In this document: positions 32,606 to 42,872 of the stretch, one piece after another
Numbering within the stretch: the stretch's first letter is position 1
How the letters are laid out: every line of letters starts with the position of its first letter
Assembly: GCF_001413955.1 (NCBI RefSeq)
Contig: NZ_LCTZ01000002.1
Span: 3,272,501 to 3,336,500, forward strand
Length of the DNA stretch: 64,000 nt
Reading direction: 5' to 3'
From: Flagellimonas eckloniae
GTDB lineage: Bacteria; Bacteroidota; Bacteroidia; Flavobacteriales; Flavobacteriaceae
Program-made: the position numbers and the translations under genes
The notes under the pieces: generated by a model
Told to the model about the DNA's origin: nothing
The model's database searches: none
Seen by the model: the letters and a program-made list of their open reading frames with translations, nothing else

Positions 32606-32866
32606 ATGAATATATCTGTTGAACTTACCTTTTCGCCCTTACAAGATGATTTTGAAGAACATATCATCAATTTCATTAAAAAGCTCAGAGCCTCTAATCT
32701 CACTGTTTTGGAAAATCCCTTAAGCACCCAAGTATTTGGAGAATATAATCAGGTTATGCAAGTATTGAACACCGAGATTGAAGCTGCCTTTGAGTTGATG
32801 GATAAAGGGTTGTTGTATATGAAATTGGTTAAATCGGACCGAAGCGAATATGAGCCACATTTTTGA
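32606..32866 (+). CDS. Thiamine-binding (YkoF/MTH1187-type) small protein
   Basis: 86 residues. The pattern VELTFSPLQDDFEEHIINFI, then NPLSTQVFGEYNQVMQVLNTEIEAAF and a final MKLVKSDRSEYEPHF fits the ferredoxin-like Thiamine_BP family, which binds thiamine or hydroxymethylpyrimidine. There is no signal peptide, so it is cytosolic. It is the first gene of a four-gene overlapping operon; its last 17 bases overlap the permease gene. Identification rests on pattern and neighbours. Confidence 0.72.
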   Translation: MNISVELTFSPLQDDFEEHIINFIKKLRASNLTVLENPLSTQVFGEYNQVMQVLNTEIEAAFELMDKGLLYMKLVKSDRSEYEPHF

Positions 32867-33488
32867 TTGGATTTTTGCTCAATACGAAGGTGTTCCAACG
32901 CACCTTATTGTTTTGGAAATGATAGGAGTTGTTTTTGGACTTCTTAGCGTATGGTATTCAAAACGCGAAAATATTTTGGTCTTCCCTACTGGAATAATAG
33001 GCACTGGAATTTTTGTTTATATTCTTTTGGTGTTTGGACTTTTGGGAGATATGCTGATTAATGCATATTATTTTATTATGAGTATTATAGGATGGTATCT
33101 ATGGACCCGAAAAGTGGACGAAACCCATTTTGTACCTATTACAAAAACCACTTCTAAAGAGAAAAAATGGTCCATTGTATTGTTCATTGGAGCAATTGCT
33201 TTTGTGTCATTTGTGTATTTTGTTTTTGACAAGTTTGATACATGGACCGCCTATGTTGATACGCTTACCACAGCTATCTTTTTTGTGGGTATGTGGTTAA
33301 TGGCAAAGAAAAAATTAGAAAACTGGGTATACTGGATTATAGGCGATATCATAACTGTACCTTTATATTGGTATAAAGGACTTATTTTTAGCTCTTTGCT
33401 ATATTTTTTGCTAACCCTCATTGCTATTTACGGTTATAAAGCATGGAAGAAAAATTTGGGCAAGAGCCCTCAGACCTTATTAAAGTAG
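32850..33488 (+). CDS. PnuC/PnuT family vitamin transporter
   Basis: 212-residue inner membrane protein with seven or eight hydrophobic helices. The PnuC signature segments YYFIMSIIGWYLWTRK (about 72-87) and NWVYWIIGDIITVPLYWYKG (about 152-171) are visible. PnuC relatives import nicotinamide riboside, riboflavin or thiamine by facilitated diffusion, trapped by phosphorylation. The YkoF-like neighbour makes thiamine the likely substrate. It overlaps the genes on both sides, so expression is coupled with the kinase. Confidence 0.88.
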   Translation: MSHIFDWIFAQYEGVPTHLIVLEMIGVVFGLLSVWYSKRENILVFPTGIIGTGIFVYILLVFGLLGDMLINAYYFIMSIIGWYLWTRKVDETHFVPITKTTSKEKKWSIVLFIGAIAFVSFVYFVFDKFDTWTAYVDTLTTAIFFVGMWLMAKKKLENWVYWIIGDIITVPLYWYKGLIFSSLLYFLLTLIAIYGYKAWKKNLGKSPQTLLK

Positions 33489-34009
33489 TTCTTTTTGGTC
33501 CGGAATCTACGGGCAAAACTACACTCTCCGAACAATTGGCAAGACAATATAATACTGTGTGGGTACCTGAATATGCCCGTGAATATTTGCAGAACAAATG
33601 GAACAATGAGCGAAAAACTTGTGAGCCAAAAGATTTGTTGCCCATTGCAGAAGGTCAAATTAAGCTGGAAAATGACCTGACCAAAAAGGCAACAGATGTG
33701 CTTATTTGTGATACTGATTTGTTGGAAACCAAAGTATATTCCGAGGCATACTATATTGGTCATTGCGATCCAGTTTTGGAAAAATATGCTTTAAAGAACA
33801 CTTACGATTTATATTTCTTGACCTATATAGATACTCCATGGGAAGCAGATGACCTTAGGGACAAACCCAACGAAAGGGAACAAATGTTCGAATATTTTCA
33901 AAACACTTTGGAAAAGTACAATCGGAATTTTGTTATCTTGAAAGGAGATAAAAGGACAAGGCTCAAAACCGCAGTTAAACATATTGATAAACTTCTTAAA
34001 AAGACATGA
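33443..34009 (+). CDS. NadR-like P-loop kinase
   Basis: 188-residue soluble ATPase of the AAA_28/NadR nucleoside-kinase type. Walker A GPESTGKT lies at about 19-26 (LFGPESTGKTTLSEQL), a VPEYAREYL substrate-side motif follows at about 41-49 and the Walker B-like LICDTDLLET at about 88-97, then DDLRDKPNER. It would phosphorylate the vitamin brought in by the PnuC-type permease (thiamine or nicotinamide riboside). It overlaps pnuC by 46 bases and the DUF4301 gene by four (ATGA). Confidence 0.85.
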   Translation: MEEKFGQEPSDLIKVVLFGPESTGKTTLSEQLARQYNTVWVPEYAREYLQNKWNNERKTCEPKDLLPIAEGQIKLENDLTKKATDVLICDTDLLETKVYSEAYYIGHCDPVLEKYALKNTYDLYFLTYIDTPWEADDLRDKPNEREQMFEYFQNTLEKYNRNFVILKGDKRTRLKTAVKHIDKLLKKT

Positions 34010-35544
34010 TTGACCTAAGTCAAAAAGATTTGGAACAACTTGAAGAAAAAGGAATTTCAAAAGAAAAAGTAGCAGCTCAAATTGAAACATTCAAAGCAGG
34101 AATCCCATTTGTAAAGCTGGTAAAAGCAGCTGTAGTTTCAGATGGAATCTTGAGATTTTCCAATGAGGAGCAAAATGAAATAATCCAGTATTTTGAAAAT
34201 TTCCGAGGTGGATTGGAGTTGTTGAAGTTTGTACCGGCCTCAGGAGCAGCCTCCAGAATGTTCAAAGCTATGTTTAATTTTTTGGATGCTTATGACTCTT
34301 CAAAAGAAACACTTTCGGAGTATATTTATCGTACAGGGGACAAGGCTGTTAAACGGTTTACAGAAAACATGTCCAGATTGCCTTTCTATAAATTAATTAT
34401 GGACAGGATTTCGGGAAAAGCTAAAAATAAGGATGAGGAAGCCTATCTTTTTGTGCAGGAAATGTTAATGTCAGATGGATTAAATTTTGGTTTCTATCCA
34501 AAAGGATTGCTGCCCTTCCATAAATATAGCTCTACAAGTGCAACACCTTTTCAAGAACATTTGAAGGAAGCTGCACTATATGCCAAAACAGATGGAGAGG
34601 CAAACCTTCATTTTACAATATCAGAACAACACGATGAAATGTTCAGAAGAGAACATTTGGCGGTAAGTCCAAATGTTGCTAAAGCTACCAATACGGAGTT
34701 TAAAATTTCATATTCAAATCAAAAACCATCTACAGACACCATTGCTGTGGATATGGAGAACAATCCCTTTAAAAATAGTGATGGCTCCATTCTTTTTAGA
34801 CCTGGAGGCCATGGAGCATTGATTGAGAACTTAAATGATCAGGATGCAGATGTTATTTTCATCAAGAATATTGATAATGTTGTAATCGATGAAAATTTGG
34901 AAACTGTTGCCAATAGTAAAAAAATGTTGGCAGGAGTATTGTTGAAAGCCCAAACCAAAGCGTTTGAATATGCAAAAACACTTGAAAGCGACAGTGTTTC
35001 TTCCCAACAGATTGAAGAAATAAAAATCTTTCTTGAAAACGAACTGAACGTTCGTTTTTCCGGAAGCTATGCTTCCAAAAGTTTAGAAGAACAACTTTCA
35101 ATACTAAAAGACAGCATAAATAGACCTATTCGAGTTTGTGGAATGGTAAAAAATGAGGGTGAGCCAGGAGGAGGCCCATTTTGGATAAGTGATGCGGATG
35201 GGAATGTTTCACTTCAGATTATCGAATCTGCACAAATAGACTTGTCTCATGAACAACAAGCGGCAACCTTAAAAAATTCAACTCATTTTAACCCGGTCGA
35301 TTTAATTTGTGGTATAAGAAACTATAAAGGGGAAAAGTATAATCTACTGGATTTTGTAGATGCTAAGCAGGGCTTTATCACAGAAAAAACCAAAGAAGGG
35401 AAAGAGCTTAAAGCTTTAGAGCTTCCAGGTCTTTGGAATGGTGCCATGGCTTTTTGGAACACAATTTTTGTAGAAGTTCCTTTGGTAACGTTCAATCCGG
35501 TTAAAACGGTAAACGATCTTTTAAAACCAACACACCAGGCTTAA
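34006..35544 (+). CDS. DUF4301 protein with UDP-sugar pyrophosphorylase-like motifs
   Basis: 512-residue soluble protein of DUF4301, a Bacteroidetes family without known function. Several segments look like those of UDPGP-type nucleotidyltransferases: PASGAASRM (77-85) in place of the nucleotide-binding G-rich loop, PKGLLPF (166-172), RPGGHGAL (266-273) in place of the PPGHGD motif, and IKNIDNVV (287-294) like the NVDN metal-binding motif. A GEPGGGPFW element is at about 386-394. Catalysis is therefore plausible: nucleotidyl transfer from UTP or another NTP. The start overlaps the kinase stop, so it belongs to the vitamin salvage operon. A strong terminator follows. Confidence 0.85.
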   Translation: MIDLSQKDLEQLEEKGISKEKVAAQIETFKAGIPFVKLVKAAVVSDGILRFSNEEQNEIIQYFENFRGGLELLKFVPASGAASRMFKAMFNFLDAYDSSKETLSEYIYRTGDKAVKRFTENMSRLPFYKLIMDRISGKAKNKDEEAYLFVQEMLMSDGLNFGFYPKGLLPFHKYSSTSATPFQEHLKEAALYAKTDGEANLHFTISEQHDEMFRREHLAVSPNVAKATNTEFKISYSNQKPSTDTIAVDMENNPFKNSDGSILFRPGGHGALIENLNDQDADVIFIKNIDNVVIDENLETVANSKKMLAGVLLKAQTKAFEYAKTLESDSVSSQQIEEIKIFLENELNVRFSGSYASKSLEEQLSILKDSINRPIRVCGMVKNEGEPGGGPFWISDADGNVSLQIIESAQIDLSHEQQAATLKNSTHFNPVDLICGIRNYKGEKYNLLDFVDAKQGFITEKTKEGKELKALELPGLWNGAMAFWNTIFVEVPLVTFNPVKTVNDLLKPTHQA

Positions 35545-36202: not shown

Positions 36203-36508
36203 ATGAGAAAATTGATTTTTGCAACTGTATTATCCTTTGTTGGTGTAACAGCATTCGCCCAAGAAGAAACTGCTGAATTACCAGTAGATGAAACTACAAT
36301 AGTAACAGAAGTACAAGATTTTGAGGAAATAAGTGTTTCCGATCTTCCAGAAGCTATTTCCAGTGCTGTGGCAAAGGATTATCCAACGGCAACTGTGGAT
36401 AAAGCTTATAAAAATGAATCAAACCAGTACAAATTGGAGGTGTCATTAGAAGATGGCACCACTGGTACCTTATATGCCGATGCTGAAGGAAACTGGATAG
36501 AGATATAA
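36203..36508 (+). CDS. Small secreted PepSY-like protein
   Basis: 101 residues: signal peptide (MRKLIFATVLSFVGVTAFAQ), an acidic linker, then a single domain with LPEAISSAVAKDYPTATVDKAYK and LEVSLEDGTTGTLYADAEGNWIE, the pattern of PepSY-like/DUF2874 periplasmic domains of Bacteroidetes. Such domains are thought to bind or inhibit envelope enzymes; no target is known. It has its own terminator, a palindrome upstream, and lies next to the two-component system genes. Confidence 0.75.
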   Translation: MRKLIFATVLSFVGVTAFAQEETAELPVDETTIVTEVQDFEEISVSDLPEAISSAVAKDYPTATVDKAYKNESNQYKLEVSLEDGTTGTLYADAEGNWIEI

Positions 36509-36543
36509 CACATATTTTAAATCGTGTTAGGTTAGTTTGGTTG

Positions 36544-36577
36544 AAGAGAGGTCTGTGTTCGCGGGCCTCTCTTTTTT
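36544..36577 (+). terminator. Intrinsic terminator after the PepSY-like gene
   Basis: AAGAGAGG (36544-36551) pairs with CCTCTCTT (36566-36573) over a 14-base loop, followed by Ts. Confidence 0.8.
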
Positions 36578-36615
36578 ATGATAATTTTACAATGCACTTG
36601 AAGTCTCATCCTGGT

Positions 36616-36639
36616 TCAGTATCGTATATTAGATACTGA
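36616..36639 (+). promoter_or_regulatory. Palindrome immediately before the response regulator start
   Basis: TCAGTATC (36616-36623) and GATACTGA (36632-36639) are perfect inverted repeats eight bases apart; the ATG of the response regulator begins three bases later. It could be an operator for autoregulation or a hairpin at the ribosome entry site. Confidence 0.5.
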
Positions 36640-36642
36640 GAT

Positions 36643-37989
36643 ATGCCCAAAATCTTAATCATTGAGGATGACACCGCTTTTTGTCAAATGCTCCAGAGCT
36701 TTTTGACCAAGCATAATTTTGATATTTCCATAAGTTATACCATCAAGGAAGCCAAGGAACAACTTAGCACCTCTTTTTTTGATATAATTCTTTCAGATGT
36801 AAGGCTTCCTAAGGGTGATGGAATTTCGTTTTTAGCGCATATAAAGGAAAAGTCTCCAAAAACCCAAGTAGTTTTAATGACAGGCTATGCTGAGGTAAAA
36901 TCTGCTGTTGATGCAATGAAAAAAGGCGCCTTTGACTATATTTCAAAGCCCTTTACCCCGGAGAATATTCTTTCAATCATTAAAAATGCCTTGAATCCTG
37001 CGGTAAAACGGAAGATGGGTGACTTGGAACCCCAAAAAGATAGGTCAACTAAAAATAACGATCAAACCAATAGTTTGGTTGGTTTCAGTGAAGTTTCCAA
37101 AAAGTTGCAACAATATATTGATTTGGTGGCCCCAACCAATATGTCGGTTTTAATAAGTGGCGAAAGCGGAACCGGAAAGGAAGTTACTGCCAAAGCTATT
37201 CATGAAAAGAGCAATCGAAATAATCATAATTTTGTAGCCGTGGATTGTGGAGCCATACCAAAAGAGATTGCGACAAGTGAATTCTTTGGGCATCTGAAAG
37301 GTAGTTTTACGGGTGCTGTTGAAGATAAAGAAGGTCATTTTGAGGCTGCAAATGGAGGCACTCTTTTTTTAGATGAAATTGGAAATCTCTCTTACGAAAA
37401 TCAAGTGCAATTGCTTAGAGCCCTACAAGAACGAAAAATTAAACGTGTTGGAGGAACAAAGGAGATTTCGGTAGATGTGCGCATTGTTGTTGCAACCAAC
37501 GAGAACCTATTGGAGGCCGTTGCGGAAGGAACGTTCAGGGAAGATTTGTATCATAGATTGAATGAATTTTCTATTGAGATACCATCATTACAGGAACGGA
37601 TAGAAGATTTAATGCTCTTTGCCAATTACTTTTTGGACAAAGCAAACAAGGAACTGAGCAAAAATGTCGTCGATTTTTCCGAAGAAGTAAAACAAATTTT
37701 CCATAACTATTCATGGCCGGGAAACCTTAGGGAATTAAAAAATATGATAAAAAGAGCAGTACTGTTTTCAGATGGAGATCTGGTAATGCGAAGTTCAATT
37801 CCCAAAACATTGGGTATGACTTCTGAAGTATCATCAGAATCCAAGTTTTCTAAATCCAATTATGAGAAAGAAAAAATTATCAAAGCTTTAAAACAAACAA
37901 ACTTCAACAAAAGTAAGGCAGCCAAATTGCTTCAGATAACCAGGAAAACACTCTATAACAAAATCAATCAATATCAACTGGAAGTTTAG
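36643..37989 (+). CDS. Sigma-54-dependent response regulator (NtrC family)
   Basis: 448 residues in three domains. Receiver (1-120) with acidic pair E8-D9-D10, phosphoacceptor D52 (IILSDVRLPKGDG), T80 and K102. AAA+ sigma-54 activator domain (about 143-380): Walker A GESGTGKE at 173-180, GSFTGA loop at 220-225 for sigma-54 contact (usually GAFTGA), Walker B GGTLFLDEIG, arginine finger region FREDLYHRLN. Fis-type HTH at the C-terminus (NKSKAAKLLQITRKTLYNKI). Its 3' end overlaps by 26 bases with the convergent hybrid histidine kinase, its likely partner. Confidence 0.95.
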   Translation: MPKILIIEDDTAFCQMLQSFLTKHNFDISISYTIKEAKEQLSTSFFDIILSDVRLPKGDGISFLAHIKEKSPKTQVVLMTGYAEVKSAVDAMKKGAFDYISKPFTPENILSIIKNALNPAVKRKMGDLEPQKDRSTKNNDQTNSLVGFSEVSKKLQQYIDLVAPTNMSVLISGESGTGKEVTAKAIHEKSNRNNHNFVAVDCGAIPKEIATSEFFGHLKGSFTGAVEDKEGHFEAANGGTLFLDEIGNLSYENQVQLLRALQERKIKRVGGTKEISVDVRIVVATNENLLEAVAEGTFREDLYHRLNEFSIEIPSLQERIEDLMLFANYFLDKANKELSKNVVDFSEEVKQIFHNYSWPGNLRELKNMIKRAVLFSDGDLVMRSSIPKTLGMTSEVSSESKFSKSNYEKEKIIKALKQTNFNKSKAAKLLQITRKTLYNKINQYQLEV

Positions 37990-40414
37990 TCAAATAAACA
38001 TGAATTTCTTTTTCCAGATTTGAAACGGTATGTTTTAGGAATTCAAAATCCTTTTTGTCAATAGCATTGGGAGCAATGTGTTCAAATTTTTCTAAGATTG
38101 GAATCGCCTTGCTAACATTTAGTTGCCTAAACATAGGAAGCATTCTGTGCGAAATGTTTCTTACTTCACTATAAATGTTATTTTTTATTCCATCTGAAAG
38201 CGATGTCATATTCCTTGCGGTTTCTTCTAAAAAACTTTCCAAAACACTTCGCAAAGCTTCGGGGTTTTCTACAAAAGAAGCAACCGTATCCGTGCTAAAC
38301 TCAGAAGAACTATTTTTTGGAATTGTAACAGTTTCCCGGTTCGCATCGGGCAAAAAGTCTACAAAATGAGCTAGTGTATCTAAGAGGTGCTTATTGGAAA
38401 AAGGTTTTTGGAGCACTTCTACAAATCCGGCAGAGAGATATTTGCTTTTGCCCAGTACTTTTTGGCCTGTCATGGCTAATATCGGCTGATTTTTGTAATG
38501 TGAAAAGTCGCCATTTTTTAGTTTATGGAGTACCTCGAACCCACCTACTTTTGGCATTTGAATATCGGTCAGCACAATATCATAGTAAATATCAGCAGTT
38601 TTTTCAAAAGCTGTGAAACATGAGAAAGTATGAGTGGTAATTTGGTGTATCTCCAAGACTTCCTTGAGCAGTTCCAGCATGGTTTCATCGTCATCAAAAA
38701 TGAGTACAGATAATTGATGCTTAAAATGATCAATGGATGGATTTTGCAGAGGAATTGGCATATTTGAAAATTCCAAGGGCAATGAAAGTTTAAAAGTACT
38801 TCCTTTATTTTTCTTACTTTCCAGAGTCAAGGTGCCACCCAATAATTTGGTCAGTTTTTTGGAGATGGTTAGCCCTAAGCCATAACCCCCATATTTTTTT
38901 TCTGTTGAATCTTCGGCTTGTGTAAATTCTTGAAATATAAGCTCCTGGTTTTTAATTTCAATTCCAATACCGGAGTCAATCACCTGTATTTTGATATATG
39001 GTTTGTGTTCTTTGTCTTCTACAAAAGCGCTTATTTTCACAAAACCCTTATAGGTGAATTTAAAAGCATTTCCAATTAGATTGGTAAGTATTTGGCGTAT
39101 TCTAAAAGGGTCGCTTAGAATAGGTTTTTTTAGTACTTCGGACACTTCAAAAATAAGGTCAATACTCTTATTTGAATGTACTTCCTTAAAATGCGAAGTA
39201 ACTTCAATAATTAGGTTATAAAGCACAAAAGGCACTTTCTCAATGGTAATTTTCCCAACCTCCAATTTTGAAAAGTCCAATAAATCGTTCGCCAAGCTTT
39301 CCATATAGCCTGAAGCTGATTTCACTTTTTTTAAATAGGTCAGCTGTTTGTTATTAAGGCCGCTGTGCTCCATCAGTTCGGCGTAGCCACTGACTGTATT
39401 CAACGGGGTCTTTAAATCATGACTTACGGTTGAAATTAATTGTTCCCTGCTCTTTAAAAGGGATTCGGAATATTTTTTCTCTTTTTCCAATTGTTTTCGG
39501 TACTCCTGTATTCGCCAAAAGTCCTTTGATATTAAAAAGGTAAAGATGATTACAACCAGAAGACCAAGGAAGACAGCCCCACCAGCCAACCAAATGCTTT
39601 TTCTTAAGATTTGTTGTTTGTTGAAATTGTCCCGATAGGCATTTAGTATGATCTCTTTTTCCAGAGAGGAGATTATACTTCTTAATTTCTGTGATAACTC
39701 AAGATCAGTTCTATAGATTTCGAGTTCCTTTTGAACTACGGAGCGTTCAATTCTAAGGTTTTCTGTTTTAGCCTCTTGTAAAAAGGATTTGGATACTTGC
39801 AAAATGGAATCTAAAGTGTTTGAATCAGTATTTTTGCCTGATTCTGAAGGGATGTTTTTATTGAGGAATGCCACATATTCTTGAATGGACTTTTGAGTTT
39901 CCAAGGGCAGGGTATTAAAATTTGGGACAAAAGTTTCAGGGGTAATTCTTCCCATATCCACTTCCATTTTATGAAATGTCTTCAGTAGCGAATCAATGGA
40001 AGTACTATTTCTGTTTTGGACTTTTAACTTTCTTAGTTCGGCACTGTTATAGACTTTTTGAAGCAACAACTTCTGGATACTATCTAATTTGTTGGTCTGG
40101 TTATCATTACTGGTCAATAGTTTTAAAGTATCTATAATACTGGCCATGGAGTCTACTTTTCGTGCATAGGCCTGAAGATTTTTTGTTTTGTTGCTCTGTG
40201 TGGCAAGCTTTGACAAATTTTCTGCTTCATAAAGCTCGGCAAACAACGCATTGGTTTTCAATAGCTTTAAATTGTCTTCCCCTATGTTTTGGGAAGAAGT
40301 GTAGTTTTTGAATTGGGAATAGATAAAAATGCCCGCCAAAAGTGCCAATAAACCTAAAACTAGATAGCTGACTACGATTTTTAATGTAAATCTGTTGTTT
40401 GATTTGGGGTACAT
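37964..40414 (-). CDS. Hybrid sensor histidine kinase (HK-REC-Hpt)
   Basis: 816 residues. Two membrane helices (about 11-31 and 273-296) enclose a helical periplasmic sensor region. Then HisKA with His332 (STVSHDLKTPLN), HATPase with NLIGNAFKFT, DSGIGI and GGYGLGL, a receiver with D617 (VLTDIQMPKVGG; DDDE at 574-577), and a C-terminal Hpt with His756 in NISHRMLPMFRQL. So one polypeptide carries a full phosphorelay; the final acceptor is probably the adjacent sigma-54 regulator, tail-to-tail with it. The signal sensed is unknown. Confidence 0.94.
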   Translation of the reverse strand: MYPKSNNRFTLKIVVSYLVLGLLALLAGIFIYSQFKNYTSSQNIGEDNLKLLKTNALFAELYEAENLSKLATQSNKTKNLQAYARKVDSMASIIDTLKLLTSNDNQTNKLDSIQKLLLQKVYNSAELRKLKVQNRNSTSIDSLLKTFHKMEVDMGRITPETFVPNFNTLPLETQKSIQEYVAFLNKNIPSESGKNTDSNTLDSILQVSKSFLQEAKTENLRIERSVVQKELEIYRTDLELSQKLRSIISSLEKEIILNAYRDNFNKQQILRKSIWLAGGAVFLGLLVVIIFTFLISKDFWRIQEYRKQLEKEKKYSESLLKSREQLISTVSHDLKTPLNTVSGYAELMEHSGLNNKQLTYLKKVKSASGYMESLANDLLDFSKLEVGKITIEKVPFVLYNLIIEVTSHFKEVHSNKSIDLIFEVSEVLKKPILSDPFRIRQILTNLIGNAFKFTYKGFVKISAFVEDKEHKPYIKIQVIDSGIGIEIKNQELIFQEFTQAEDSTEKKYGGYGLGLTISKKLTKLLGGTLTLESKKNKGSTFKLSLPLEFSNMPIPLQNPSIDHFKHQLSVLIFDDDETMLELLKEVLEIHQITTHTFSCFTAFEKTADIYYDIVLTDIQMPKVGGFEVLHKLKNGDFSHYKNQPILAMTGQKVLGKSKYLSAGFVEVLQKPFSNKHLLDTLAHFVDFLPDANRETVTIPKNSSSEFSTDTVASFVENPEALRSVLESFLEETARNMTSLSDGIKNNIYSEVRNISHRMLPMFRQLNVSKAIPILEKFEHIAPNAIDKKDFEFLKHTVSNLEKEIHVYLTKLPVDID

Positions 40415-40525: not shown

Positions 40526-40533
40526 CCCCATCT

Positions 40534-40606
40534 CAAAGGGGTGCTTTTTAAATAAGGCTGAGATTATACCCAATGAACCTGGGCGGGTAATGCTGCCAAG
40601 GGATTG
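40534..40606 (+). ncRNA. TPP riboswitch (THI element) aptamer
   Basis: The conserved thi-box cores are all present in order: AAAGGGGTGC (40535-40544), GGCTGAGATTATACCC (about 40556-40571), GAACCTG (40575-40581), GGGTAATGCTGCC (about 40585-40597) and AAGGGATTG (40598-40606). It senses thiamine pyrophosphate and should repress the downstream TonB receptor when TPP is plentiful. It lies about 95 bases before that gene's ATG. Confidence 0.93.
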
Positions 40607-40702
40607 CGCGTAGCGCACTTGGAATTTCTATGTTTCTTTTGAAACAAAAATCAATTTTTAACAAGAATAATAGCCCCTTTTATTCGTAACATTTTTACGA
40701 AT
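40596..40702 (+). promoter_or_regulatory. Expression platform between TPP aptamer and receptor start
   Basis: Three structures are visible. CCAAG (40596-40600) and TGCGC (40605-40609) pair with GCGCA (40613-40617) and CTTGG (40618-40622), which would break the aptamer. CCCCTTT (40674-40680) is complementary to the aptamer's AAAGGGG (40535-40541), like an anti-thi-box. ATTCGTAA (40682-40689) pairs with TTACGAAT (40695-40702), burying the start codon. With no T run, control is probably at translation. Confidence 0.6.
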
Positions 40703-42872
40703 GAAAACTATATTCACAACTTTTGCCCTTTGTGGGCTGGCACTTATTGGAAGTGCTCAAGAAAAACCAACAGATTCGCTGCAAGGCAAAAAAATTGTAT
40801 TGGACGAGGTGTTGGTTCAAGCTATTCGGGTAACAAAGGAGTTTCCCATTACCTTTTCCAATTTGGACAAGGACGAAATCGCTCCCAGAAACCTAGGTCA
40901 GGACATCCCGGTTTTAATGAACTTTTTACCTGGTGTGGTTACAACATCAGATGCTGGAGCGGGGATTGGTTACACGAGTATTCGTGTGCGTGGTAGTGAC
41001 GCAACAAGGGTTAACGTTACCATAAATGGTGTTCCCTACAACGATGCTGAATCACAAGGAACTTTTTGGGTAAATATGCCAGATTTTGCTTCATCTACCG
41101 AAAGTTTGCAATTACAACGCGGAGTTGGCACATCTACAAATGGTGCCAGTGCTTTTGGCGCCAGTTTAAATCTATTGACCGATGCTTTTTCAAATGAAGC
41201 CTATGCAAGAATTTCTTCATCCGTTGGAAGCTTCAACACCTTAAGGAATAACCTAAAATTTAGCACAGGCCTGCTTAATGACCATGTTGAAATCTCAGGA
41301 AGACTATCAAGAATTACCTCTGATGGATATATTGATAGGGCTTCATCAGAACTGGAATCGTATTTTCTTCAAGGAGCGTACAAGGATGAAAATACATTGA
41401 TAAAAGCATTATTGTTTGGTGGTCATGAGGTCACCTACCAATCTTGGTTTGGAATTGATGCAGAAACGTTAAGGACCAACAGAACTTTCAACCCTGCAGG
41501 AATCTATACTGATGAAAATGGAGCTACCCAATTTTATGATAGAGAAGAGGACAACTATAAACAAGATCATTTTCAGTTGCATTGGAATGAGAAAATCAGT
41601 TCAACATGGAGCTCCAATATAGCTTTACACTATACAAGAGGTCGTGGGTATTTTGAGCAGTTCCGAGAGGATGATGATTTTGAAACCTATGGATATGAAC
41701 CTTTTGCAATTGACGGAGAAGAGATAAACACCACAGATTTAATCCGAAGAAGATGGTTGGTCAATGATTTTTATGGAACCGTACTATCACTAAATCACCA
41801 GAAGGAAAATTTGGATTTAATTATTGGTGGTGGGTATAATGTATATAAAGGTGACCATTTTGGAGAAGTAATTTGGACTCAGTTTGCAAACTCTGGCGTT
41901 ATTGGCGACAGATATTACGATGATAATTCTACGAGAACGGATTTCAACGGCTATGTTAAGGCCAATTACAAATTAGATGGTAAATGGTCCATATTTGCAG
42001 ATATGCAATATAGGAGCGTGGGGTATGAAGCCAATGGTGAAGATACCGGTTTGGTGGACGACACCTTTAACTTTTTTAACCCTAAAGCAGGTGTTACTTT
42101 TAACATGAATCCTAATAATAACTTCTATTTTTCCTATGCCGTAGCAAATAGGGAACCCAACCGGAATGACTACGAAAACGGAAATCCCAAACCAGAAAGA
42201 TTGAATGATTTTGAGTTGGGATGGCGTTATGTTTCTCCAGATTTTCAGTTAAATACCAATCTATATTACATGCGCTACCAAGACCAATTGGTACTTACCG
42301 GAGAACTAAATGATGTGGGTGCACCACTCAGGGCCAACGTTGGAGATAGCTATCGTTTGGGCTTGGAGATTGATGCGACTATTACATTGGGAGATAAGTT
42401 CAGTTTACGGCCCAATATTGCATTGAGTGACAATAGAAATATTGATTTTGTATTTCAAAGAGATGGAACTCTTCAGGATTTAGGAAACACAAATATCGCA
42501 TATTCACCCAATGTAGTGGCTGGGAATATCCTTTCATTTCTGCCAAACGAAAACCTTCAATTATCCCTGTTATCAAAATTTGTGGGCAAACAATATATGG
42601 GGAATATAGACTCTGAAGCCTCAATTCTGGAGAGTTATTGGCAGACAGACTTCAATGTTCAGTATGTTATTGAAACAAACTCGTTTGTTAAAAGTATTGT
42701 GCTTTCTGGTTTGGTAAACAATATTCTTGATGCGGACATTGTATCAAACGGATACTTTTTTACCTATGATGATGATTTTTCCAACCCCGGAACCATTACC
42801 ACTATTGAAGGTAACGGATTTTATCCACAGGCAGGGATAAACTTTTTAATAGGGGCAACCATTAATTTTTAA
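40701..42872 (+). CDS. TonB-dependent receptor under TPP riboswitch control (probable thiamine uptake)
   Basis: 723-residue outer membrane receptor. Signal peptide (MKTIFTTFALCGLALIGSAQ), a short periplasmic segment with TonB-box-like VLDEVLVQAI, plug domain about 45-165 (NLGQDIPVLMNFLPGVVTTS; GYTSIRVRGSDATRVNVTIN; GASAFGASLNLLTDAF) and a barrel ending in NFLIGATINF. No CarboxypepD_reg domain. The TPP riboswitch in its leader points to import of thiamine or a precursor across the outer membrane, which fits the thiamine-type salvage operon at 32.6-35.5 kb. Confidence 0.93.
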   Translation: MKTIFTTFALCGLALIGSAQEKPTDSLQGKKIVLDEVLVQAIRVTKEFPITFSNLDKDEIAPRNLGQDIPVLMNFLPGVVTTSDAGAGIGYTSIRVRGSDATRVNVTINGVPYNDAESQGTFWVNMPDFASSTESLQLQRGVGTSTNGASAFGASLNLLTDAFSNEAYARISSSVGSFNTLRNNLKFSTGLLNDHVEISGRLSRITSDGYIDRASSELESYFLQGAYKDENTLIKALLFGGHEVTYQSWFGIDAETLRTNRTFNPAGIYTDENGATQFYDREEDNYKQDHFQLHWNEKISSTWSSNIALHYTRGRGYFEQFREDDDFETYGYEPFAIDGEEINTTDLIRRRWLVNDFYGTVLSLNHQKENLDLIIGGGYNVYKGDHFGEVIWTQFANSGVIGDRYYDDNSTRTDFNGYVKANYKLDGKWSIFADMQYRSVGYEANGEDTGLVDDTFNFFNPKAGVTFNMNPNNNFYFSYAVANREPNRNDYENGNPKPERLNDFELGWRYVSPDFQLNTNLYYMRYQDQLVLTGELNDVGAPLRANVGDSYRLGLEIDATITLGDKFSLRPNIALSDNRNIDFVFQRDGTLQDLGNTNIAYSPNVVAGNILSFLPNENLQLSLLSKFVGKQYMGNIDSEASILESYWQTDFNVQYVIETNSFVKSIVLSGLVNNILDADIVSNGYFFTYDDDFSNPGTITTIEGNGFYPQAGINFLIGATINF

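Follow-up and report, generated by a model that had tools for sequence, protein, structure and literature searches.

DUF4301, a candidate UDPGP-type enzyme that probably uses UTP, in a putative thiamine salvage operon of Flavobacteriaceae

In AnUGP the phosphates are contacted by K135, H228 and K403, Mg by D258, uridine by L121, G123, G124, Q198 and G227, and glucose by N256, N329 and N331 together with E307 (PMC10470519). Residue roles in AtUGP are similar (PMC5832301), and the human UGP substitutions K127A, N251L, D253L and K396A leave less than 0.2% of the activity (PMC5381698). A different nucleotidyltransferase is met in NadR, which is itself a kinase fused to an adenylyltransferase (PMC7221760). 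Adenosine thiamine diphosphate occurs in cells, and the excerpts available of the paper describing it state that its synthesis in vitro has not been shown (PMC8615392).

DUF4301, a domain of unknown function, occurs in 66 of the 395 sampled phylum genomes. The literature excerpts retrieved gave no function for it and mentioned it once, as a row in a rumen proteome table; PF14134 gave no literature match, and no paper naming a NadR-type thiamine kinase was found among the matches listed, as far as their excerpts go. InterPro may already place DUF4301 among the nucleotide-diphospho-sugar transferases. Here a DUF4301 gene was analyzed in a 64,000-nucleotide stretch of Flagellimonas eckloniae DNA (the window; Table 1), for which a preliminary description had proposed a UDPGP-type nucleotidyltransferase in a vitamin salvage operon. 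Fold, conserved residues, gene order, fusions and riboswitch match were computed. On these grounds DUF4301 is a candidate enzyme of UDPGP type with a mapped active site, probably using UTP and apparently part of a thiamine salvage operon, which ties the domain to vitamin B1 use in Flavobacteriaceae. The DUF4301 frame is a real gene: it is a single open frame with an ATG start and a stop codon, opposite which the minus strand carries many stops.

Table 1. Positions of the features discussed, in window coordinates
Feature	Position	Strand	Basis or remark
Thiamine_BP-like protein, 86 aa, first gene of the operon	32606..32866	+	PF01910 23.9 bits, cut-off 24.9
PnuC-family transporter, read as thiamine transporter (PnuT-like)	32850..33488	+	PF04973 176.7 bits
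NadR-type (RNK-like) kinase, 188 aa, putative thiamine kinase	33443..34009	+	AAA_28 150.8 bits
DUF4301, candidate UDPGP-type nucleotidyltransferase, 512 aa	34006..35544	+	PF14134 733 bits, near full length
Nucleotide-binding loop PASGAASRMF	34234..34263	+	codons 77-86; set on UGP LNGGLGT by eye
Helical insertion absent from UGP	34264..34497	+	codons 87-164; model secondary structure, L194 sequence
PKGLLPF with K166, candidate catalytic Lys	34498..34518	+	codons 165-171; placement by eye
Q239, candidate uracil-reading Gln	34720..34722	+	invariance, spacing to H269
RPGGHGAL with G268 and phosphate-binding H269 (predicted)	34798..34821	+	codons 265-272
IKNIDNVV with N288 and Mg-binding D290 (predicted)	34861..34884	+	codons 286-293
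NEGEPGGGPFW, at the position of the sugar-binding loop of UGP	35152..35184	+	codons 383-393; conservation, hhalign
E407 and N429, UGP glucose-pocket positions	35224..35292	+	codons 407-429; invariance, hhalign
K500, candidate catalytic Lys (human UGP K396)	35503..35505	+	invariance, hhalign
TPP riboswitch aptamer; TonB receptor ORF 80 nt downstream	40527..40620	+	RF00059 50.0 bits
TonB-dependent receptor, putative outer-membrane receptor for thiamine (OMthi-like)	40701..42872	+	PF00593, PF07715, riboswitch upstream

Fold and active site of DUF4301

AlphaFold was run on the window's DUF4301 with 59 relatives taken from 80 loci, and the resulting model (pLDDT 91.6, pTM 0.90) was compared with the PDB by Foldseek. 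The predicted structure has a GT-A-like UDPGP core fold. All 40 matches with E < 0.001 were UGP or UAP/AGX chains (best E 4.4e-10; TM-scores on the query 0.37 to 0.51), and the next kind in the list was RmlA, at E 8e-3. Since all 40 best matches are UGP/UAP, DUF4301 appears to be kin to UDPGP specifically and not to GT-A folds generally. The Rossmann-like core whose absence would have spoken against the preliminary assignment was thus found, and model, Foldseek, conservation and hhalign agree with a UDPGP-type nucleotidyltransferase.

The link to UDPGP in the sequence itself appears weak but present, and it exceeds what chance would give. The UDPGP profile PF01704 scored 20.6 bits (E 2e-4) with the window's DUF4301, under the 22-bit cut-off, and at E ≤ 0.1 it matched 35 of 60 aligned members (best E 9.6e-6); in the 395-genome scan the only DUF4301 locus with a PF01704 match was G009 (18.5 bits). 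Compared profile to profile by hhalign with L194 and L195, two true UGPs from the phylum, DUF4301 gave E 7e-5 at full length and E 4e-7 after removal of the insertions, and the insertion-free profile paired H269, N288, D290, E407, N429 and K500 with UGP active-site residues. An earlier hhalign run with a smaller profile had reached E 0.0011 (probability 20%), with the IDN motif misaligned. The A1 profile gave E 0.42 at best against PDB sequences, and a phmmer search with a segment of DUF4301 from which the insertions had been removed found no UGP.

Conservation was counted over 90 DUF4301 sequences, namely the A1 set of 60, which includes two from outside Flavobacteriaceae (L066 and L080), and 30 others. 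K166, Q239, G268, H269, N288, D290, E407, N429 and K500 were invariant in all 90, and P77, S79, G80, R84, M85 and F86 of the nucleotide loop were identical in all 90; loss of the motif residues among homologues, named beforehand as evidence against the assignment, was not seen in this set. The phosphate-type Lys, His and Lys (K166, H269, K500) and the metal Asp (D290) are therefore kept in 90/90, and K127, N251, D253 and K396 of human UGP match conserved DUF4301 residues. N256, E307 and N329 of the AnUGP glucose pocket correspond to N288, E407 and N429, again in 90/90. The place of AnUGP N331 is held by V431 in the window protein and by Val or Thr across the 90 sequences. S79 stands at the place of AnUGP G123, and the Gly-Gly of the UGP nucleotide loop is not kept (S79-G80 in 90/90, placed by eye). 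Acceptor-side residues were nearly identical between operon and stand-alone DUF4301 genes among the 90 sequences.

Residue correspondences with L194 came largely from hhalign, which pairs H269 with H177, E407 and N429 with E257 and N279, K500 with K353 and, only in the insertion-free profile, N288 and D290 with N205 and D207; it sets G388 and G389 on K241 and G242 of the KGG. The nucleotide loop, K166 and Q239 were misaligned by hhalign, which matched Q239 with a different Gln of L194, and these were placed by eye and by spacing. The Q-to-H step is 30 residues in DUF4301 (Q239, H269), AtUGP (162, 192) and AnUGP (198, 228), and the E-to-N step is 22 in DUF4301 (E407, N429) and AnUGP (307, 329), the UGP numbers being those in the source excerpts. 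From the nucleotide-loop Gly to the Lys there are 86 residues in DUF4301 (G80-K166) and 11 in L194 (G79-K90), because of the helical insertion; in the AlphaFold model a second helical stretch (~295-371) lies between D290 and the sugar loop. The preliminary description had four motifs in the order and spacing of UDP-sugar pyrophosphorylases: all four are present in that order, whereas the UGP spacing holds only in part, given the two insertions. PASGAASRM lies at residues 77-85 as described, and PKGLLPF, RPGGHGAL and IKNIDNVV each begin one residue earlier than described.

The operon and its thiamine context

Upstream of DUF4301 in 80 related loci, which include L066 and L080 from outside Flavobacteriaceae, the Thiamine_BP-like gene was found in 64, the PnuC gene in 76, the kinase in 75 and all three in 64. 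The kinase was directly upstream of or fused to DUF4301 in 75/80, and the approximate gap between the two was -8 to -1 nt in 67 of these 75, fused ones counted. In the window the PnuC ORF shares 17 nt with the Thiamine_BP-like ORF before it and 46 nt with the kinase ORF after it, and the kinase and DUF4301 ORFs overlap by 4 nt, an overlap already recognized in the preliminary description, from which the Thiamine_BP-like ORF was missing. The L068 relative of the Thiamine_BP-like protein scores 27.3 bits with PF01910. The PnuC gene is the sole PF04973 match in its genome, and its product scores 105.5 bits with the NCBIfam NR transporter PnuC model (cut-off 42.45). The kinase has no NMNAT domain and matches the RNK part of NadR (PDB 9x6f, 173-349, E 5e-16). 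Departures from this gene order were found in L016 and L057 (transporter and kinase both missing from the 6 kb preceding DUF4301), L069 (transporter without kinase) and G084 (no adjoining kinase).

Between DUF4301 and the riboswitch-receptor pair, window positions 36203-40414 encode a small PepSY-like protein and a paired response regulator and histidine kinase; many relatives are without these genes at that place, and some have the small gene two or three times. Frame breaks, perhaps sequencing errors, interrupt three genes of L031 (Maribacter halichondriae): those for DUF4301, the Thiamine_BP-like protein and the response regulator. A 134-aa ORF follows the kinase in four loci of genomes without DUF4301 (L184, L185, L186, L188); that of L185 is an RF-1 domain protein.

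The riboswitch match (E 4e-9 in 321 bases) lies below the Rfam gathering score of 54.3, and a scan of the window at the gathering score gave no match, the aptamer being visible only below it. Among the matches listed it is the only TPP match in its genome. A TPP match on the same strand within 8 kb downstream, measured from DUF4301 or from the kinase where DUF4301 is missing, was found in 21 of 24 same-family genomes examined, the others being G057, G367 and G107. The scores of 20 of these 21 were below the gathering score, and Rfam annotation at that score would miss 20 of the 21 TPP matches beside the cluster. A TPP riboswitch in L030 was considered as an operon part and rejected, the gene that follows it reading as ThiC by eye. 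Relatives of the window's TonB receptor occur soon downstream of DUF4301 in many loci.

No match to ThiC (PF01964) or thiamine pyrophosphokinase (TPK, PF04263) was found in the window's own genome, in which ThiL (TIGR01379) is over its cut-off; from this pattern the NadR-type kinase is probably a thiamine kinase. Neither ThiC nor TPK was found in 15 of the 24 Flavobacteriaceae genomes examined. Across 37 genomes outside genus code g2 (which its place in the tree among named loci identifies as Flavobacterium), 23 had the kinase only, 12 TPK only, one both and one neither; G190 is the genome with both, and it encodes a NadR-like protein of two domains. This near-exclusive occurrence outside g2 makes a thiamine kinase likely, and we put the NadR-type kinase forward as the probable thiamine kinase of these bacteria. 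Against that reading, g2 has both kinase and TPK, with 5/6 g2 genomes examined keeping the kinase as a single frame with DUF4301, and among solved structures the nearest relatives are NR kinases. In a tree of 31 PnuC rows, the cluster's PnuC fell in a supported group (98/95) apart from NadR-adjacent PnuC. This group was not joined to TPK-adjacent PnuC, so the tree is no proof of thiamine. The proposal of a vitamin salvage operon is supported and becomes specific to thiamine through the Thiamine_BP-like gene, the TPP riboswitch and the absence of ThiC and TPK matches: in Flavobacteriaceae the gene set looks like a thiamine salvage operon.

Distribution of DUF4301 and fusion to the kinase

Of 110 loci, 16 have kinase and DUF4301 in a single ORF; the ORF of L107 is 620 aa long, and no kinase part was recognized in it. 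A quick tree of 91 rows, 16 of them fused, requires seven changes of the fusion label, five of them forced by well-supported branches, and one of the seven is L069, where the kinase is absent and not split. These changes indicate that fusion was gained or undone several times, between which the tree cannot tell. Five of 41 same-family genomes have PnuC and kinase without DUF4301.

A search by blastp with the window proteins (E ≤ 1e-4) found PnuC, the kinase or the window's TonB receptor near DUF4301 in 0/30 loci outside Flavobacteriaceae (L171, L173 and L182 being short), and these 30 loci have no common neighbor of DUF4301 among the matches listed. Recurrent neighbor clusters there consist of response-regulator/histidine-kinase and secreted-repeat proteins, linked by common domains; a RelA/SpoT gene is near DUF4301 in 5 of the 30.

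DUF4301 was also considered as a general replacement of GalU, and this was rejected, as galU is rare and two of the genomes bearing it, G190 and G249, also have DUF4301. Of the 395 phylum genomes, galU (TIGR01099) is over cut-off in 5 and PF01704 in 8, the window's own genome having no PF01704 match. Frames of ~1110-1156 aa with partial PF01704 matches (23.6-41.1 bits) occur in 7 genomes (L196-L201, L203-L205), each with a TIGR01099 match ~3 kb off. In G182, a TonB receptor, a PnuC and a two-domain NadR-like protein that scores below the NCBIfam cut-offs stand in a row (L206); the row reads as a set of its own for nicotinamide riboside salvage, alongside the thiamine cluster of the same genome.

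Proposed function and known systems

From these results we infer the activity, the use of UTP, the acceptor, the substrates of kinase and transporter, and the direction of recruitment. In a pocket of GT-A type, DUF4301 would bind an NTP (probably UTP), transfer its nucleotidyl moiety to a small phosphorylated molecule and release pyrophosphate. K166, H269 and K500 would hold the phosphates, D290 the Mg ion, and Q239, G80 and G268 the base. The retained N288, E407 and N429 suggest a sugar-phosphate-like acceptor; as the sugar loop is new and one Asn of the pocket is lost, this is apparently not simply glucose-1-phosphate. In Flavobacteriaceae, DUF4301 would have entered a thiamine salvage operon by recruitment and become its last gene, in the order Thiamine_BP-like gene, PnuT-like transporter, putative NadR-type thiamine kinase and DUF4301, followed by the TonB receptor with its TPP riboswitch, and would have been fused to the kinase more than once. 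Somewhat over even confidence is given to this reading, that of a catalytically intact, divergent UDPGP branch which uses UTP and a sugar-phosphate-like acceptor and was recruited into the thiamine operon. Sugar-pocket conservation and the stand-alone genes favor a nucleotide-sugar used elsewhere, and the near identity of acceptor-side residues in operon and stand-alone genes makes one family-wide substrate likely, available without the kinase. Against it count the TM-scores of 0.37 to 0.51, the Ser of the nucleotide loop, the Val or Thr at the place of AnUGP N331, the missing C-terminal beta-helix, the by-eye placement of the nucleotide loop, K166 and Q239, and the E 0.42 of the A1 profile against PDB sequences; nor would a sugar-nucleotide product explain why the gene is fused to a thiamine kinase.

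Operon position and repeated kinase fusion favor nucleotidyl transfer to a phosphorylated vitamin instead. The kinase would make ThMP, and DUF4301 would join ThMP or ThDP to AMP or UMP (from ATP or UTP), adenosine thiamine diphosphate being one example of a product. The order transporter, kinase, nucleotidyltransferase with its 4-nt overlap, the adjoining or fused kinase in 75/80 loci and the single-ORF fusions in 16/110 fit such an enzyme; so does g2, which has TPK, needs no thiamine kinase for ThDP, and keeps the kinase-DUF4301 fusion (5/6), and ThMP or ThDP would also be available without the kinase. However, the UGP glucose-pocket residues N288, E407 and N429 are invariant, whereas a thiamine phosphate is without such hydroxyls, and the base pocket resembles a uracil pocket. 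DUF4301 also occurs without an adjoining kinase (L069, G084) and without transporter and kinase (L016 and L057, within 6 kb upstream, and 30/30 outside loci), and five of 41 same-family genomes have PnuC and kinase without it. We consider transfer to a thiamine phosphate possible, though unlikely. If it were true, the enzyme would make a thiamine nucleotide that is new or so far without a gene, and with thiamine phosphate as acceptor DUF4301 would be a gene for thiamine nucleotides, whose synthesis is still a question (PMC8615392). Another reading takes DUF4301 for a chance neighbor: a housekeeping enzyme of sugar-nucleotide metabolism, brought into the operon for the sake of its expression and metabolically unrelated to thiamine. 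PnuC and kinase are absent beside DUF4301 in 30/30 other loci, and L016 and L057 have neither gene in the 6 kb upstream, which fits this. The three upstream genes kept in 64/80 loci, the short overlaps before DUF4301 and several separate fusions are hard to credit to chance, and we regard such a neighbor without a link as rather improbable; it is compatible with, and not exclusive of, the recruited UDPGP branch.

That the UDPGP fold might be catalytically silent, sensing a nucleotide or sugar nucleotide and controlling thiamine uptake, is suggested by the Ser in place of the loop Gly and by the absent C-terminal domain, and a sensor would explain the kinase fusion as well as the absence of DUF4301 from some genomes. 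Phosphate and metal residues kept in 90/90 would be needless in a silent protein, and DUF4301 is retained away from PnuC and kinase in 30/30 other loci; a regulator or scaffold therefore seems very unlikely to us. Least credence of all, close to none, is given to NAD synthesis, in which the cluster would salvage nicotinamide riboside, the kinase would make NMN, and DUF4301 would adenylylate it to NAD in place of the NadR NMNAT. In its favor are the kinase, which most resembles the RNK domain of NadR, the precedent of NadR's kinase-adenylyltransferase fusion, and the transporter, which passes the NR transporter PnuC model. However, NadD was over cut-off in 16/16 genomes searched, the window's own included, and G182 has its separate TonB receptor-PnuC-NadR-like set (L206), from which NAD salvage is unlikely as the cluster's role; the Thiamine_BP-like gene and TPP riboswitch, the position of the cluster's PnuC apart from NadR-adjacent PnuC (98/95) and the uracil-type pocket of DUF4301 argue against it as well.

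As a divergent UDPGP branch, DUF4301 shares with UGP the GT-A-like core, the motif order, the phosphate, metal and base residues and most sugar-pocket residues. It differs in its two helical insertions, the Ser in the nucleotide loop, a different sugar-binding loop and the absence of the UGP C-terminal beta-helix, 12 residues following K500 in contrast to 95 after K353 in L194. Like NadR, the locus has a kinase of the same family next to or fused with a nucleotidyltransferase; unlike NadR, the nucleotidyltransferase is of the UDPGP fold, the kinase comes first, and the context is thiamine. With the Bacteroides OMthi-pnuT-tnr3 thiamine locus, as described in the excerpts of PMC5613172, it has in common a TPP riboswitch, a TonB receptor, a PnuC-family transporter and, in the putative kinase, a thiamine-phosphorylating enzyme, whereas here the NadR-type kinase stands in place of tnr3, the riboswitch precedes the receptor only, and the Thiamine_BP-like and DUF4301 genes are extra.
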